A stretch of 64,000 nt of DNA from Caldicellulosiruptor diazotrophicus (GTDB taxonomy: Bacteria; Bacillota; Thermoanaerobacteria; Caldicellulosiruptorales; Caldicellulosiruptoraceae): positions 1,944,001-2,008,000 of the forward strand of contig NZ_AP024480.1 of the NCBI RefSeq assembly GCF_017347585.1, written 5' to 3'. Positions 34,433-43,314 of this stretch are shown piece by piece (position 1 is the stretch's first letter; each line of letters starts with the position of its first letter). The notes under the pieces are model-generated. The model was not told the origin of the DNA. It ran no database searches and saw nothing but the letters and a program-made list of their open reading frames with translations. Both the position numbers and the translations under genes were made by a program.

Positions 34433-35107
34433 TCAAGCCATTTCAATTGCATTTTTAGGACATACCAGTCTGCAGCTTTCGCATTTTATACAGTTAACAC
34501 TTTCAATGTTTCCATTTTCTTTGAAATAACAAACCTCTACTTCCATCGGACAATTTTTGTTGCAAAGCTTGCAGCTTATACATTTTTGTGCATCTATCTT
34601 GAGCACTCCTCTTTTTTTGCCCACAACTCCGCTAACTGTCCCCATCGGACATAAAACACACCATGTCCTTGCTCTAAATAAAATTCCTAAAATTATTGCA
34701 ATCAAAGTTGTAACCCATAAAAGCATCACAACACCTTTCCCAAATCTCTCTAAATCTCCCCCGCTTAAAATAGCATTTGCACTCATCATCACAACAAAAA
34801 ATGTAAGCATAAATGCTTTTGCAACCTTTGACTTTAAAACTGCAGGAATATTTTTATTAAAGCTTGCTTTTGCAACAAACTCATCTAAAAACACTCCTCT
34901 CGGACAAAACCTGTAGCACCAGTACCTTCCTTTGTAAAAGCTTAGCAAAACACTACCTGTCATACATACAAATGCAAATAAGCCTATTTTTGGATAAAAA
35001 AGTCCTACTACTAAAACTCCAAAAAATACAAAAAACAAAAACATCCTTTCAATGCGACTTTTGTCCAAATTCAATCTTTTTTTATTTTTTCTTTTCAGTA
35101 TTTCCAT
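34433..35107 (-). CDS. Membrane protein with NapH/YccM-like 4Fe-4S domains
   Basis: 224 residues. Membrane helices are predicted at about 22-60, 95-112 and 125-145. Two cysteine clusters occur on a loop (CYRFCPRG and CVLCPMG). The C-terminus has two 4Fe-4S ferredoxin motifs (CISCKLCNKNCPMEV and CIKCESCRLVCPKNAI). It probably transfers electrons at the membrane, as NapH or NosR-type proteins do, with unknown partner. GGGGG precedes the ATG by eight bases. Its promoter contains an unusual inverted repeat (35153-35179), suggesting dedicated control. Confidence 0.85.
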   Translation of the reverse strand: MEILKRKNKKRLNLDKSRIERMFLFFVFFGVLVVGLFYPKIGLFAFVCMTGSVLLSFYKGRYWCYRFCPRGVFLDEFVAKASFNKNIPAVLKSKVAKAFMLTFFVVMMSANAILSGGDLERFGKGVVMLLWVTTLIAIILGILFRARTWCVLCPMGTVSGVVGKKRGVLKIDAQKCISCKLCNKNCPMEVEVCYFKENGNIESVNCIKCESCRLVCPKNAIEMA

Positions 35108-35438
35108 GTCAAATACCCCCTTACATTTTTCTTTTGTATCATATGCATTCCAGGTATTTTTTATACCATGGGTAGGTATTGTATGTCAATTAGAAAGCCT
35201 TTATGAAATTTGCTAATAAATGTGAAAAATAAATTTTCTAAATTGCACAATCAGTTTATCTTTGCTGTAAATTTCGAAACTAAATTACACTTTCATAAAT
35301 CTGATGTTTTATGTTAAAATATCACTAAATCCAATTTGGACTTTATAAACTCGATTAAAGCAAATCAATATTGTTAATAAATCATATCAGTCAGAATACT
35401 ATACGATGTTACACTAAATCTTGAGGGAGGGGTTCTCG
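35108..35438. other. Intergenic region between divergent Fe-S protein and aminotransferase genes
   Basis: 330 AT-rich bases. The left part holds the Fe-S gene promoter and inverted repeats (35153-35189). In the right part I see only a weak promoter for the aminotransferase (TTTCAT-18-TAAAAT around 35292-35320) and no conserved RNA structure. Confidence 0.5.
35153..35189 (-). promoter_or_regulatory. Promoter of the Fe-S protein gene with three ATACC/GGTAT half-sites
   Basis: Minus strand TTGACA (35189-35184), 18-base spacer, TATAAA (35165-35160). In the spacer ATACC and GGTAT form an inverted repeat with a seven-base centre (35179-35163). The GGTAT half pairs again with ATACC at 35157-35153 with a five-base centre. 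Repeats inside a -35/-10 spacer are typical targets of metal- or redox-responsive regulators (CsoR, MerR types); the regulator is unknown. Confidence 0.6.
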
Positions 35439-37028: not shown

Positions 37029-37817
37029 ATGAAGGATAAACTTTTAGTTGTTGACATCGGCAATACTAATATTGTGTTCGGTGTTTACAAAGGGAAAGAT
37101 TTAATAGCAAGTTACAGGATGAAGACTGACAAAGAAAAGGCTGCTGATGAGTTTGGAATACTTATGACACAGATGCTTCTGTATAGCGGCATAAACCCAC
37201 TTGATATAATGGATGTCATAATATCATCAGTTGTACCACCAATAATGTATTCATTCGAAAGAGCAATACAAAAGTATTTTGGAACAAACCCTATGGTGGT
37301 AGGTCCAGGCATCAAAACGGGACTAAACATAAAAACTGAAAACCCAAAAGAGGTTGGCTCAGATAGAATTGTCAATGCAGTTGCAGTAAACGAACTTTAT
37401 GGAGGCCCTGCGGTAATAATTGATTTTGGAACAGCAACAACCTTCTGCGCCCTCTCAAGAAAATCAGAATACTTAGGTGGTGCAATTGCACCAGGCATTA
37501 AAATTTCGGCAGAGGCACTTTTCTCTCATGCAAGCAGGCTTCACAGAATAGAACTTCAAAAGCCACCAAATGTAATTGGTAAAAATACAGTACATGCCAT
37601 GCAGTCAGGTATCATCTATGGTTATGTTGGTCTTGTGGATTACATGGTGGAAAGGATAAAAGAAGAAATGGGTGAAATAAACGCAAAAGTTATTGCAACA
37701 GGTGGTCTTGCAAGGCTTATTGCTGAAGAATCAAAAACAATTCAGATTGTAAACCCAATCTTGACATTAGAAGGCCTAAGGATAATATACTATAAAAACA
37801 AACAGGTATCAGTTTAG
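37029..37817 (+). CDS. coaX: Type III pantothenate kinase
   Basis: 262 residues of the CoaX family, phosphorylating pantothenate in the first step of coenzyme A synthesis. Motifs are [15 protein letters not shown] (phosphate 1), [36 protein letters not shown] and [18 protein letters not shown] precedes the ATG. Last gene of the aminotransferase-ybjQ-coaX unit. Confidence 0.95.
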
Positions 37818-37840: not shown

Positions 37841-37889
37841 GGGGCAATAAAACCTTAAAAAAACAGCAGGTTTTGTTGCCCCTTCTTTT
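37841..37889. terminator. Terminator between convergent coaX and CotS-like genes
   Basis: GGGGCAATAAAACCT pairs with AGGTTTTGTTGCCCC (14-15 bp including a wobble) and is followed by TTCTTTTT on the plus strand; A-rich flanks give a tail on the minus strand too. Confidence 0.85.
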
Positions 37890-38881
37890 TATATCTGTTT
37901 TTCAAGCCATCTAATAAAATCATAGTGAAATTCTTTTTCTGCAATAACTTCATGAAGCTTGTTTGTAAATGCTTTCTCAGACCAGCTCTTTTTGCCATTA
38001 TAATATCTGTTGCATGTTTTCCAATATCTGTATGGAAAAAGTAGAATTATATAGACAAGTTCAAGCTCGTCTTTGTTCAGTGGCGATACATTTGAATACC
38101 AGTTTAAAATACTTTCACCTGTTTTTATATCCCAGTGAATCCTTTTTAACACTTTTTGCATAAAGCTTGTGAGGTCAATTATTCTAAGGTCATAGGTAAG
38201 ATAATCAAAGTCTATAATATATACATCTCCATCGTGAGTGTAAAGAATATTGTGATAAGAGTAATCTCTATGAATGAATCCCCTTTTTTCTCTCGCCTCA
38301 TCACAAAGTTTTAAGTAACTTGAACTTTTAAGTTTTTCAAGCGCTTCCTTTGCAAGGTCAAAATAATATGAGTATGTAAATAAATATTCATAATCAAAAG
38401 TACTCTTTTTCTTCTCTGCCATTTTTCTCATACGCAAAAATTCATTGCAGCGCTTTTCAAACTTAGTCAAAAGTTTCCCCAAATCATCTCTCACCCTTGC
38501 ACCTTCTGGAACATTTGTATAACCTATTGATGCTTCGTGCATCATAGCAAGTTTTTCTGTCGCAGCTTTCAGTTCTATCGGGTTTTCAAGTTCACACTCT
38601 CTTGCATCAATCCAATCTGTTAGTACATATATTTCATCACCTAACATAACATAAGGCAAGCCTTCCTTGCTTAAATTAAACCTGTCAATGTCTATAAATC
38701 CCCTCGAAACAAGGTGTTCTTTTCCACCGTGAATAAACAGAAGCGTTTCTATCGAATAGTCTATCTTTTTAAAACACTTAAGTCCTCTGTCTGTTGAAAG
38801 AACTAAAATATCACGGATAGGCATAAAATAAAAAACTTCTATATCAAAAAATTGGGTTATCTCCTCTCTCAGAGCAATCAT
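37889..38881 (-). CDS. CotS-like kinase family protein (aminoglycoside phosphotransferase fold)
   Basis: 330 residues, APH-like small-molecule kinase fold as in the CotS/YutH spore-coat family. The catalytic loop FIHRDYSYHNILYTHDGDVY and metal motif YIIDFDYLTYDLRIIDL are intact, so it may be an active kinase. The ATG at 38881 lies eight bases after GGGAGGTG; the ATG at 38899 precedes that site. It is third in a row of CotS-like genes. Substrate unknown. Confidence 0.85.
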   Translation of the reverse strand: MIALREEITQFFDIEVFYFMPIRDILVLSTDRGLKCFKKIDYSIETLLFIHGGKEHLVSRGFIDIDRFNLSKEGLPYVMLGDEIYVLTDWIDARECELENPIELKAATEKLAMMHEASIGYTNVPEGARVRDDLGKLLTKFEKRCNEFLRMRKMAEKKKSTFDYEYLFTYSYYFDLAKEALEKLKSSSYLKLCDEAREKRGFIHRDYSYHNILYTHDGDVYIIDFDYLTYDLRIIDLTSFMQKVLKRIHWDIKTGESILNWYSNVSPLNKDELELVYIILLFPYRYWKTCNRYYNGKKSWSEKAFTNKLHEVIAEKEFHYDFIRWLEKQI

Positions 38882-38926
38882 AATAAAAACACCTCCCATT
38901 AAAAACTATATGATTTTACTGCTTTT

Positions 38927-39895
38927 TTAATGCAGGGAGGCTAAAATTTTGTTTTTATATTGGTCCTTTTCACATAACCTTTTAAACTTTTCTTCAAATC
39001 CTTCAGATGCCCAGTCCAAATCTCTAAACCTAATAATTTTCTTGAGAAGAGAAAAATACTCATACGGCAGAAGTATCATAGCTAAGACTAACAATTTTTT
39101 ATAATTGTTATATGATGCATTGTAAAATTTACTTATACAGTCTTCAAAATCAAAATTTTTGTCTATTCTAAGCAGGCTTTTTATAAATGTGGCTATGTCT
39201 TTTTCACGCACATTTAGCTCTAAGTCAAACATATTTCCAAGTCTCAATTTGTTGTAGCATTTGTATATATTGTTAATAGTCAGCTTGCCATGTATGAATC
39301 TATTTTCTTGCATGCTGCGCGAGGTTACCTCAAGATACCTATCATCTTCTAAAATTTCTAATGCTTTTTTTACATATTCGATATTTGTATCAATCGTTCT
39401 TATAATTATGTCTCTCAACTTTTCATTTTTTATTAACTGAGGTTTTTCTTTTAGCTTAATGAACATCGAATACATATTTCGTGCAGCAATCCTATCTTTT
39501 CCATATTGAACATTGTACCTTGCACCTACAGCTAATTTTAAGTTGGTAGACGCTGCATGAAAAGAATTTATAAATTCTATACAGTTGAGTATTTGTTTTT
39601 CAGAAAGTTCAACTGGTTCTTTTTTAAAATATTCTACCAGCACATATGTTAACTTGTTAAACCTTAGATATGGACAACCATCCTTTGTGGGAATAATTTT
39701 TTCAAAATTAACAAATTTATTGTCTTTTAAATGCTGATGACAGTGAAATATAAAGACAATTTCAGCCGGCGACATTCTGGTCTTTTTTAAAAGGTATTCA
39801 GCATTGCCCATTTTTAACAAATACCCATCTTTGAATTTCTTGAGCTCTTTTATGTCAAAGCCATAGCAGAGCTTAAATTTTTGTTTCAATGCCAT
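38927..39895 (-). CDS. CotS-like protein with degenerate kinase motifs (probable pseudokinase)
   Basis: 322 residues with overall layout matching its two neighbours (N-lobe with YLLKKTRMS, helical C-lobe with LPYEYFSLLKKIIRF). Where the catalytic loop HRD or HxD is expected it reads FIHGKLTINNIYK, and the metal-binding DFD is replaced by MFDLEL. The catalytic base Asp is therefore lost, suggesting a structural or regulatory role. AGGAGGG precedes the ATG. It overlaps the upstream CotS-like gene by ten bases, so the two are made together. Confidence 0.8.
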   Translation of the reverse strand: MALKQKFKLCYGFDIKELKKFKDGYLLKMGNAEYLLKKTRMSPAEIVFIFHCHQHLKDNKFVNFEKIIPTKDGCPYLRFNKLTYVLVEYFKKEPVELSEKQILNCIEFINSFHAASTNLKLAVGARYNVQYGKDRIAARNMYSMFIKLKEKPQLIKNEKLRDIIIRTIDTNIEYVKKALEILEDDRYLEVTSRSMQENRFIHGKLTINNIYKCYNKLRLGNMFDLELNVREKDIATFIKSLLRIDKNFDFEDCISKFYNASYNNYKKLLVLAMILLPYEYFSLLKKIIRFRDLDWASEGFEEKFKRLCEKDQYKNKILASLH

Positions 39896-40887
39896 TTAAA
39901 ACACCCTCCTGAAAACTCTTTTATTATCATCTCCTTCCCATGTTGTATTCTTTCTGCTCCTTTGAGTCTTTTGAGAAAATACTCTTCTGTCCATGGCTGT
40001 TTCTCGAAATAATATTGAAGTCCTACCTGCCATATCTCTTGTGGAAAATACATTAAAATCCAAAATATCTGCAACCATAATTTTTTTGAGATATTTATAT
40101 CATGTAGAAATTTTAAATAAATTCGAAATATATTCCTGTCCCAATCATTTGTTTTTAAAACTCTTACACCGAGGTTTACAAAGTCATGTACACTATAATC
40201 TACCATGGCATAGTCGAAGTCGATGAGGTATACCCCTTTTTCAGAAAATATAAAATTGTGATGGGCAGGGTCATGATGAATGAGTACTCTCCTATTTTCT
40301 TTTCTGAAATAGTTTTCTATTGTTTTTATCATATTAATGCTGTAGACAAACCTGTCTTCAAATTTGCTTAAAATATTTAAGAACATCTCATCAAAATAGC
40401 CAAGACTATTTTTTCGATGTATAATATTCTTCATTTGAATAACTTGTAAATACTTTTTTCTAAACACTTCTTGATAAGATGGATAAAAACTGCCTTCTAT
40501 TTTATCAGCAAAAGAAAGCGAGGCTAAATGAAGGTGGTGCAAGATTGAAACTGCTCTTCTCAAATCAAAAACATTTCTAAAATCTGCGCTTCTGCCGTCT
40601 ATCCACTTACATAGAAGATAAACCTTTTTATTTTCATCTAAAAAATAAAAGCCACCGTCAATGGTCTTCTGAAAATCTATCAGGTGGCTTTTGAAACTTG
40701 TATTTTTCAGGTGTGAAAAAATCTTGATAATAAAATCAACATGTTCTTTGTCAACTCTGCTGACCTTTAAAAAAAATTCTTTACCATCTTTTGTCTTTAC
40801 AAAATAGGCATTAGATTTTATTTGCTTTATTTTTTCTATCCTTAGATAATAATTTTCTTCAACTAACTTTAGTTCAAGAGTTCCCAT
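39886..40887 (-). CDS. CotS-like kinase family protein (aminoglycoside phosphotransferase fold)
   Basis: 333 residues. The catalytic loop is LIHHDPAHHNFIFS and the metal motif VYLIDFDYAMVDYSVHD, both complete. It belongs to the same family as the genes at 37889 and 38927 but is well diverged from both. The start ATG at 40887 has no clear ribosome site. First of the three kinase-like genes, 57 bases after the DUF2156 gene; the four probably form one transcript. Confidence 0.83.
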   Translation of the reverse strand: MGTLELKLVEENYYLRIEKIKQIKSNAYFVKTKDGKEFFLKVSRVDKEHVDFIIKIFSHLKNTSFKSHLIDFQKTIDGGFYFLDENKKVYLLCKWIDGRSADFRNVFDLRRAVSILHHLHLASLSFADKIEGSFYPSYQEVFRKKYLQVIQMKNIIHRKNSLGYFDEMFLNILSKFEDRFVYSINMIKTIENYFRKENRRVLIHHDPAHHNFIFSEKGVYLIDFDYAMVDYSVHDFVNLGVRVLKTNDWDRNIFRIYLKFLHDINISKKLWLQIFWILMYFPQEIWQVGLQYYFEKQPWTEEYFLKRLKGAERIQHGKEMIIKEFSGGCFKWH

Positions 40888-40943
40888 GAAATTCTATTTT
40901 TTTCAATGCTCAATTTCATTATATGGTAAACTTGCAGTTAGTG

Positions 40944-41840
40944 TTAATCAAAAAGAATAGTAAACTTTTCTGCAAATTTAAACGGATGGTAAGACATTTT
41001 TGCCTTTCTTATCCCCTCCTTCCCCAAATCTTCTTCACGGTTTACAAACTCAAAATCCTGCCAAAATTCTGCTAAAAATTTTTGGTTAATAAAAGCATAA
41101 AGCCCTTCAACATCTGGATCTGCCTTTTCTATATGTATGACCACTGTATTTTTATTTAAAGGTTCTCCAAATGTAAAAGCTTTTATTTTTCCATCAATAA
41201 AAACTACCATACCTTCATAAGAAAGTTTATCAAAATTTCTTATTGCCCTTTCTATGGCCATTTTCTCAAATGTAAGTCCTATATCCTCCTTCCCGTTTCT
41301 TTTTTCATACCATTCACATTCAAAGTCCCAGCAAAGCTTTATTATTTCTTCATCTATTTTTTTCCACTCACATCTATCTGAATAGAGCCTTAAAAACTTG
41401 TTAATATGGTTCTTTTTGGGATGATATTTCTTTCCCTTTAGTTGAATCAAATCTCCAACTTTGTAAACATAGTCAGAAAGGTCTCTCTCAAAAATACTTT
41501 TGAACTTTATTTTACACTCTGAAAGCATATCCACTGTCTTTTTAGAAGCTCTTTTTATCATGAAACTATATCCTTCAGATTCAAAAAAACTCTTGGCTTT
41601 TTCTATTACAATAGGAAGTTTATCTAAATCTTTGCCCACAGGTCCATGTAAAAAAGGAGGCTGGTTGTATGGCTTTGCCATGATGAGCAAAAAATTATCT
41701 TCTTCGGTAAAATGAATATCATAAAACGGATCCCACATAAAGAGGTTTGTAAACGTCAGGTCAGCAATTTCGGGCTCAAATTCAGCAAAATACTGGTCAA
41801 AAATTCTTTTGTGTGAAATGTCTATTTTATAAAATTTCAT
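40944..41840 (-). CDS. DUF2156 / phosphatidylglycerol lysyltransferase-like domain protein
   Basis: 298 residues of a GNAT-like double-acyltransferase fold. Visible family features are ADLTFTNLFMWDPFYDIHF near the start, KGKKYHPKKNHINKFLR (about 125-145) and HIEKADPDVEGLYAFINQ followed by FVNREEDLGKEGIRKAK. Related domains occur at the end of MprF lysyl-phosphatidylglycerol synthases, but without the membrane part the substrate is unknown. The ATG at 41840 follows GGGGGT by seven bases; an earlier ATG at 41885 has none. Confidence 0.85.
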   Translation of the reverse strand: MKFYKIDISHKRIFDQYFAEFEPEIADLTFTNLFMWDPFYDIHFTEEDNFLLIMAKPYNQPPFLHGPVGKDLDKLPIVIEKAKSFFESEGYSFMIKRASKKTVDMLSECKIKFKSIFERDLSDYVYKVGDLIQLKGKKYHPKKNHINKFLRLYSDRCEWKKIDEEIIKLCWDFECEWYEKRNGKEDIGLTFEKMAIERAIRNFDKLSYEGMVVFIDGKIKAFTFGEPLNKNTVVIHIEKADPDVEGLYAFINQKFLAEFWQDFEFVNREEDLGKEGIRKAKMSYHPFKFAEKFTILFD

Positions 41841-41948
41841 AAAATCTACCCCCATATCGATACAAAAGTTTTGAATAAAACACAAATAAAATATATAATA
41901 TCATTATAGAAGGTTTCTGTAATCCATAAAAATAAAGGATGGTAGACA

Positions 41949-42455
41949 ATGGCTACATATATAGTGTTGTATTGTTTGTACTTTTTAAAAGTATTTTTTC
42001 TTGTAAGCCTAATTTTAAGTTTGTTTGGTGTATGCTACAGTATAAAAAAAGTTATAGTTGTGAGCTTTATTCAAGCTTTTTGGGATACTATTGTATTTGG
42101 CAACCATATAAATCTTATGCTGGGACTTATACTTATGACTACTTGCCTAATACTTTTGTATATCCTATACCTCAAACTTCTACCCTTATATGGTATCATC
42201 TTAGGACTTATTTCGCAATCCTTATGTCTGGCACTAAAATTTGGAGGTTATTCAATAATTAGTACAATTGCTAATAATCTCTCGCTGGCACCATCAGTGC
42301 TTGCATGTGACATAACAACACTTGTAATTGAAATAGCTGTTATGAGTGTACTTCTTGTTATTATAAAGAGTAGAAACTACTTGGTATTTGAAATTTGCAA
42401 AATATTGCCTTCACATATTGATAAAGGGAATGAGGTAAAGTATGAAGAAAAATGA
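41949..42455 (+). CDS. Multi-pass membrane protein paired with a sensor kinase
   Basis: 168 residues with about five predicted membrane helices and very little extramembrane sequence. It overlaps the following histidine kinase gene by 14 bases, so the two are made together. The layout (membrane protein then Spo0B-type kinase) resembles peptide or ligand sensing units in Bacillota, but no Agr-type processing residues are recognisable. It may form the sensing part for the kinase. Confidence 0.7.
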   Translation: MATYIVLYCLYFLKVFFLVSLILSLFGVCYSIKKVIVVSFIQAFWDTIVFGNHINLMLGLILMTTCLILLYILYLKLLPLYGIILGLISQSLCLALKFGGYSIISTIANNLSLAPSVLACDITTLVIEIAVMSVLLVIIKSRNYLVFEICKILPSHIDKGNEVKYEEK

Positions 42456-43314
42456 CCATACAAAGCTTTTGATATCAATGCTATTTTTACTTGCACTTAT
42501 TATGTTTTTACTCATCTATTCGATATACTTTATTAACACAGAATTCATTAAACATCAAAAGATACCTCAGTGGCAAAGAACACTTGTTATATATTCTTTT
42601 ACTCTGCTTGCAATCTTAAATTTGTATACTGTCAAAAACCTTTTTTCAGCACTAAGTATACTAAAGACAACACAAGTTTATAAAGACAATATAAAATCAC
42701 TGGACAATTTTATAAACATCTTAAGAGCTCAAAGACATGAGTTTAACAACCATCTTCAAATAATATGGGGACTTATTTGTGTTGGAAAATACAATGACGC
42801 TGTACGTTATATTGAGCAAATCAGCGAAAACCTCAAAAATACATCAAAATTTTACGGGCTTGGGTGTGCAGAACTTTCTGCTTTGATATTCGCAAAAAGT
42901 GCTTTGGCTGAGAAGTACGATATAAATTTTGAATTCCATTACAGCGTAGACTTTAGTAATCTTAAGTTTGATTCAATGGACCTTATAAATATCTGTGGCA
43001 ATCTAATCGATAATGCATTTTTCTATGCAAAATCTTCATTTTCAAAATATGTCGGGCTTAATATAGAAGATGAAGGAAATTGGATTGAAATCACAGTAAC
43101 AAATTCAGGTTCTTATGTAGATAAATGTAAAAAAGATAAAATATTTGAGCTTGGATATTCCACAAAAAATTCAAGTGGGCTTGGTCTTTTTATTGTAAAA
43201 TCAACAGTGGAAAAATACAAAGGTAAAATTGACGTTTTTTCAGAGTACAGGACTCTTGAGAAAATGGAAGAAGGATACACAACCTTTAGAGTAATTCTGC
43301 CAAAAAAAATATAA
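42442..43314 (+). CDS. Sensor histidine kinase with Spo0B/AgrC-type phosphoacceptor domain, no adjacent response regulator
   Basis: 290 residues: two membrane helices (about 9-32 and 46-66), then the dimerisation/phosphoacceptor segment RAQRHEFNNHLQIIWGL (His at about residue 98) and a GHKL ATPase domain with NICGNLIDNAFFYAK (N box) and SSGLGLFIVKSTVEKYKGK (G box). The His-Glu-Phe-Asn-Asn pattern is that of the Spo0B_a family (DpiB, CitA, AgrC). The gene ends in its own terminator before a tRNA gene, so its response regulator must be encoded elsewhere. Confidence 0.9.
   Translation: MKKNDHTKLLISMLFLLALIMFLLIYSIYFINTEFIKHQKIPQWQRTLVIYSFTLLAILNLYTVKNLFSALSILKTTQVYKDNIKSLDNFINILRAQRHEFNNHLQIIWGLICVGKYNDAVRYIEQISENLKNTSKFYGLGCAELSALIFAKSALAEKYDINFEFHYSVDFSNLKFDSMDLINICGNLIDNAFFYAKSSFSKYVGLNIEDEGNWIEITVTNSGSYVDKCKKDKIFELGYSTKNSSGLGLFIVKSTVEKYKGKIDVFSEYRTLEKMEEGYTTFRVILPKKI

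Follow-up and report, generated by a model that had tools for sequence, protein, structure and literature searches.

A probable sporulation-linked cluster of spore kinase genes with a central pseudokinase in Caldicellulosiruptor

In Caldicellulosiruptor, three tandem genes of the CotS, or bacterial spore kinase (BSK), family share the fate of core sporulation genes, being retained, damaged or missing in the same genomes. Their role is therefore most likely in spore making and not in a new envelope pathway. We consider it quite probable that this triplet is a sporulation-linked BSK cluster, composed of a BSKC2-like gene (K3), a BSKC6L gene (PK) and a BSKC4-like gene (K1), in which PK is a non-catalytic partner. 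All three genes belong to the CotS family and are subject to purifying selection, PK has lost the catalytic residues while keeping the fold, and the entire triplet disappears jointly with sporulation genes. The pseudokinase and its family are already known, having been in print since 2009; for the loss of the triplet alongside spore genes in this genus, and for the evidence of selection, no published account was found in one open-access library.

Background

The bacterial spore kinases were defined, and several of them predicted to be pseudokinases, by Scheeff et al. 2009 (PMC2860764). In the available portions of their text, a non-catalytic BSK function is predicted, non-spore functions are suggested for some BSKs, and no BSK is said to have been assayed for kinase activity as of 2009. 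The same portions describe the BSKC6L proteins of C. saccharolyticus and Anaerocellum thermophilum, with an intact N-lobe and no catalytic residues, as well as a Clostridium BSKC2-6-1 operon with BSKC4 nearby and glycosyltransferases on the flanks. For BSKC4, sporulation-selective expression and conserved sigma-E sites are reported there, and for the BSKC2-6-1 operon, no sigma-E site found upstream (PMC2860764). As for the host, Galperin et al. 2012 (PMC3533761), in the text available, state that Caldicellulosiruptor has not been seen to sporulate, yet possesses spo0A, SASP genes and numerous spore genes. They consider that the conditions for sporulation possibly have not been found and also that the missing genes should prevent it; some spore genes, spoIIIAF among them, are listed as missing in Caldicellulosiruptor in Table 5 of that paper.

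Results

Layout of the locus

The window, namely, the whole 64-kb stretch of Caldicellulosiruptor DNA that was analysed, carries the triplet on the minus strand between positions 37889 and 40887, with a DUF2156 gene upstream and coaX convergent with it (Table 1). Plasmid sequences agree with the host genus, which the earlier note had guessed: in G002, a genome of the same genus with an intact triplet, the first 2000 bases of a 3653-base contig are 100% identical to the C. bescii DSM 6725 plasmid NC_012037.1, and a small contig from the genome of the window matches that plasmid at 83% identity over 91% of a 1500-base query. The stop of K3 and the start of PK overlap by 10 nt in all 10 genus genomes with an intact triplet and in the decayed G008; in the intact genomes, the K1 start lies 43-46 bases beyond PK. 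The true start of K1 is very probably the ATG at 38881, behind GGGAGGTG, because a W codon or a stop stands at the longer start in 7 of these 10 genomes. The DUF2156 reading frame extends over 40944-41885(-), with the likely ATG at 41840. The same gene order, DUF2156-triplet-coaX, is found in a genome of the sister genus (G012), where the pseudokinase has HGN; given this conservation and the intactness of all three frames in 10 of the 12 genus genomes, their tandem arrangement is not due to chance. Two genes at window positions 41949-43314(+) are divergent from DUF2156: one encodes a small membrane-like protein that matches nothing in Pfam or NCBIfam, the other a sensor kinase of the SpoOB-type/HATPase kind. 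A pair similar to these two also adjoins the locus in G012.

Table 1. Features of the triplet locus (positions in the window)
Feature	Position	Strand	Basis
K3, first gene of the triplet, putatively active BSKC2-like spore kinase	39886..40887	-	TIGR02906, APH, tree
PK, pseudokinase (BSKC6L)	38927..39895	-	TIGR02906, lost catalytic residues, AF2 fold
K1, putatively active spore kinase (BSKC4-like), most typical CotS of the triplet	37889..38881	-	TIGR02906, YtaA match
K1, longer ORF	37889-38899	-	open reading frame
Sigma-E-like box before K1, putative promoter	38905..38933	-	GCATTAA-14-CATATAGT
DUF2156 / LPG_synthase_C gene, neighbour outside the functional unit	40944..41840	-	PF09924, 179 bits
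coaX (type III pantothenate kinase), housekeeping flank, control	37029..37817	+	PF03309, 261 bits

Two putative kinases and a pseudokinase

Of the NCBIfam families, the one that K1, K3 and PK each match best is TIGR02906, the CotS family spore coat protein model: with a cut-off of 172.7 bits, K1 scores above it (371.5), K3 just below (171.8) and PK well below (110.2). K3 and PK match over the full length of the profile, K3 orthologs exceed the cut-off in 6 of the 10 intact genomes, and K3 also matches the APH profile (47.9 bits). In the alignment of the triplet and its relatives (A5), K1 has the catalytic motifs H204-R-D206, N211 and D224-F-D226, and K3 has HHDPAHHN and LIDFDY, that is, HHD...N and DFD. 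In PK, H202-G203-K204 occupy the HxD place and N209 is kept; K204 is invariant in the genus (10 of 10 rows) and is replaced by N in the sister genus. The residues of PK opposite DFD are N221-M-F223, of which N221 and F223 are invariant in 8 rows. The structural H113 and D233 of PK, invariant in the same number of rows, lie opposite H115 and D236 of K1, which was aligned to YtaA by HMM; of the equivalent YtaA residues, H148 and D269, the available text of Scheeff et al. (PMC2860764) says that they stabilise the C-terminal lobe and that nearly every BSK pseudokinase retains them. By sequence, K1 matches YtaA (2q83) with an E value of 9.8e-31. The AF2 model of PK has a full N-lobe (of five models, the top one has a mean pLDDT of 88.6 and the poorest 63), and its best PDB match is, again, YtaA 2q83 (TM 0.78). 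Judging from these motifs, K1 and K3 are probably kinases and PK is a pseudokinase of the CotS family.

An earlier note on this DNA had described three tandem CotS-family genes following a DUF2156 gene, the outer two with complete catalytic motifs and the middle one with HGK and FDLE in place of HxD and DFD. The reading frames at this place, the TIGR02906 matches and the intact frames in 10 of 12 genomes bear out the tandem triplet, and the upstream DUF2156 gene and the complete motifs of the outer two genes hold as well. For the middle gene, the HGK substitution stands and the FDLE part does not, FDLE being located 2 residues downstream of the NMF that aligns with DFD and not homologous to it.

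Sigma-E-like boxes

The box before K1 has the same elements and spacing, with a varying spacer, in all 10 intact genus genomes and in G012; in the decayed G008, its -10 element is altered to CTTATAGT. Its -35 part falls in the conserved last codons of PK (S-L-H-stop). The box, which was first seen by eye and tested afterwards, scores 13 of 15 against the sigma-E consensus, a value reached by 0 of 200 shuffles in the genome of the window (G000), 1 in G003 and 3 in G012, and a tighter pattern fitted to it has 1 match in the window, compared with 0.03 expected. From the box, we infer sigma-E control of K1. A sigma-E-like box before K3, TAACACT/A-14-CATATAAT, present in the 10 intact genomes, was set aside as weak: its -35 is poor and, by eye, it also fits a sigma-A promoter. 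Elsewhere in the window, at 35178-35206(-), a close sigma-E-like box, TCATAAA-14-CATACAAT, lies 71 bases before a gene for a 4Fe-4S protein, 34433-35107(-), which is possibly spore-regulated.

Joint loss with sporulation genes

Across 12 species-level Caldicellulosiruptor genomes, the triplet is intact in 10, reduced to five broken pieces in G008 and missing from G007, where DUF2156 and coaX lie ~170 bases apart. The fate of spoIVA is the same: intact in the same 10 genomes, split into two pieces with a stop in G008, and not found in G007. The same 10 genomes have sigE above its cut-off of 348.6 bits; G008 has a match of 320 bits in an open frame, and the best match in G007, 70 bits, is at the level of other sigma factors. 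Weak matches to spoIIIAF (24.5-40.4 bits, cut-off 61.3) likewise occur in these 10 and in neither G007 nor G008. The controls, DUF2156 and coaX, are intact in all 12 genomes, and both spo0A and SASP genes are present in all 12; given the SASP genes in G007 and Spo0A in G007 and G008, the loss is not tracked by every spore gene. In the DUF2156+coaX tree, G007 and G008 are sisters (88/92), so that the joint loss may represent one event rather than two.

The two lineages illustrate an early and a finished stage of spore-gene loss: at the G008 locus (L108), each of the three kinase genes carries frameshifts and stops, and G007 (L107) has a clean deletion. Sequencing error is unlikely to account for the G008 lesions, which hit three genes plus spoIVA while the genes on either side of the triplet are undamaged in that stretch. 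G007, without sigE, spoIVA and the kinases, keeps two SASP genes (G007:C1:1430525-1430695 and 1085363-1085530), as if they were used outside spores. In the genome of the window, the SpoIIIAF match (G000:C1:1552643-1552936, L124) scores 26.5 bits and is probably a diverged copy, although spoIIIAF is among the genes given as missing in Table 5 of PMC3533761.

These patterns bear directly on the suggestion of the earlier note that, in a non-sporulating host, such kinases would be out of context and might act on envelope lipids or glycans, with the DUF2156 protein as an acyltransferase-like partner. A search of the genome recovered spo0A, spoIVA, sigE, SASP genes and a weak spoIIIAF, and thus gave no support to the view that the kinases are out of context. 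The idea that they have been re-used in vegetative cells for phosphorylation of envelope lipids or glycans together with DUF2156 appears unlikely to us: the description of the genus as non-sporulating (PMC3533761, in the text available), the retention of the DUF2156-triplet-coaX order in the sister genus, and the Clostridium BSKC2-6-1 operon without a sigma-E site (PMC2860764, likewise in the available text) would all be compatible with it, but the genomes with a missing or damaged triplet are exactly those with a missing or damaged spoIVA, no spoIIIAF match, and sigE either absent or under its cut-off. DUF2156 does not follow this pattern, being intact in 12 of 12 genomes, the triplet-less G007 included, compared with 10 of 12 for the triplet; it is therefore not a dedicated partner of the kinases. 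In all 5 of the more distant loci examined, it stands without these kinases, and its upstream regions in the genus contain no sigma-E-like box better than shuffles (best score 11-11.5, reached by 65-69% of shuffles in the three tested); in G012, the corresponding score is 13, reached by 6.5% of shuffles. On the strength of the retention of DUF2156 and its occurrence without kinases, an envelope role with a DUF2156 partner was rejected.

Purifying selection on all three genes

Selection was assessed as the pairwise median of Nei-Gojobori dN/dS; the 10 intact genomes gave 45 pairs for each gene, and those with dS outside 0.05-1.5 were dropped. K1, PK and K3 are all under purifying selection, with median dN/dS of 0.053, 0.139 and 0.162, respectively (29 pairs each). 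The corresponding values are 0.077 for DUF2156 and 0.054 for coaX (28 pairs each), 0.060 for spoIVA (39 pairs) and 0.074 for sigE (28 pairs). The low ratio of PK implies that the pseudokinase is maintained like its active neighbours. Selection on all three genes would also be expected if they served the vegetative envelope. It is difficult to reconcile with the proposal that the triplet, inherited from an ancestor that made spores, no longer functions and has merely not decayed yet. For this proposal, the report of a non-sporulating genus with some spore genes missing (PMC3533761 Table 5, in the available text) and the decay, ongoing in G008 and finished in G007, might be invoked. With dN/dS between 0.05 and 0.16 at a median dS of 0.28-0.43 for the triplet pairs, not a single stop was found in 10 genomes, and spoIVA and sigE behave alike, whereas neutral drift at such divergence should yield broken frames, as it did in G008. 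The dN/dS of the triplet, spoIVA and sigE led us to reject relic status, which we regard as highly improbable, even more so than envelope re-use.

Relatives in other Clostridia

Scanning genome contigs with K1 yielded 9 loci, all from Clostridia and 8 of them from Clostridiaceae. By local profiles and the tree, all 9 encode a K3-like kinase; 7 have a short pseudokinase matched by PK, and 7 have a K1-like kinase, which yabG adjoins in every case. Among the remainder, L135 is a 4.4-kb contig, and L133 has in the pseudokinase position an unmatched 228-aa ORF that is BSKC6-like by eye only. K1 is 39-43% identical to genes in seven Clostridiaceae loci, each beside yabG, and the order in the Clostridium/Caloramator loci is glycosyltransferase, kinase, short pseudokinase, kinase, glycosyltransferase, K1 relative, yabG. 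The Caldicellulosiruptor locus (L100-L112) has no match to a glycosyltransferase or yabG, and yabG, sought as a common spore-coat neighbour, was found in none of the 12 genus genomes; thus, the Clostridium setting is only half kept. The PK profile, run over 398 genomes of the phylum, has matches at E <= 1e-8 in 22, including 7 in the genus.

A tree of 43 rows places K3 together with the kinase that comes first in the Clostridium cluster (100/99). The same tree splits 11 pseudokinases from 32 kinases (100/99), with a warning from the program about long branches meeting, and with the BSKC6 of Scheeff et al. matched by description. PK may thus be of one lineage with the short pseudokinase of Clostridium, whose position in the gene order it shares. 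Whether K1 and the BSKC4-like genes form a single clade is left unsettled by this tree because the outcome depends on the root. The labels BSKC2 for K3 and BSKC4 for K1 are, accordingly, a mapping from gene order and the available text of PMC2860764.

Discussion

The closest published counterparts of PK are the BSKC6L and BSKC6 proteins of Scheeff et al. (PMC2860764), with which it shares the loss of the catalytic residues and the retained structural His and Asp and, in the case of BSKC6L, the genus and the full N-lobe. No departure of PK from BSKC6L was found; the description of the latter, in the available text, is without the K3 and K1 neighbours in the genus, the joint loss or the selection reported here. 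The locus as a whole resembles the Clostridium BSKC2-6-1 operon in that a kinase is followed by a pseudokinase with a K1/BSKC4-like gene close by. It differs from that operon in lacking BSKC1, both glycosyltransferases and yabG, in having the BSKC4-like gene directly next to the pseudokinase, and in the N-terminal lobe, which the Caldicellulosiruptor pseudokinase retains, in contrast to the short one of Clostridium. With the CotS/YtaA(CotI)-CotSA cluster of B. subtilis, the triplet has in common the TIGR02906 family and the fold, YtaA (2q83) being, among solved structures, the closest to K1 in sequence and to PK in fold; unlike that cluster, it has no neighbouring glycosyltransferase or nucleotide-sugar genes.

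A scenario can be outlined for the triplet as a sporulation-linked cluster. Most likely, sigma-E directs the expression of K1, PK and K3 in the mother cell of sporulating cells, as the joint loss with spore genes and the sigma-E-like box indirectly suggest. The two putative kinases, K1 and K3, with their choline-kinase-like fold, might phosphorylate a component of the spore envelope, be it a small molecule, a glycan precursor or a coat protein. PK, presumably made in step with K3 by virtue of the 10-base overlap of the two genes, could contribute without catalysis, as a coat-assembly or docking partner, conceivably a scaffold in contact with K3.

Conclusions

What still surprises is the host: in a genus called "non-sporulating", spore genes continue to be selected for. 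In view of the joint loss and the evidence of selection, it is fair to hypothesise that Caldicellulosiruptor has a hidden capacity to sporulate. In the form that we would put forward, and to which we assign even chances, most species of the genus are hidden spore formers, 10 of the 12 species-level genomes actively maintain, by selection, a sporulation programme with sigma-E, SpoIVA and a kinase trio with a non-catalytic middle member, and only the branch of G007 and G008 has truly lost it. The 10 genomes that keep these genes and the two sister genomes that lose them offer a natural comparison that ties the kinases, the dead one included, to sporulation. Plant-biomass-converting organisms that are called non-sporulating may, then, sporulate under conditions not yet tried.
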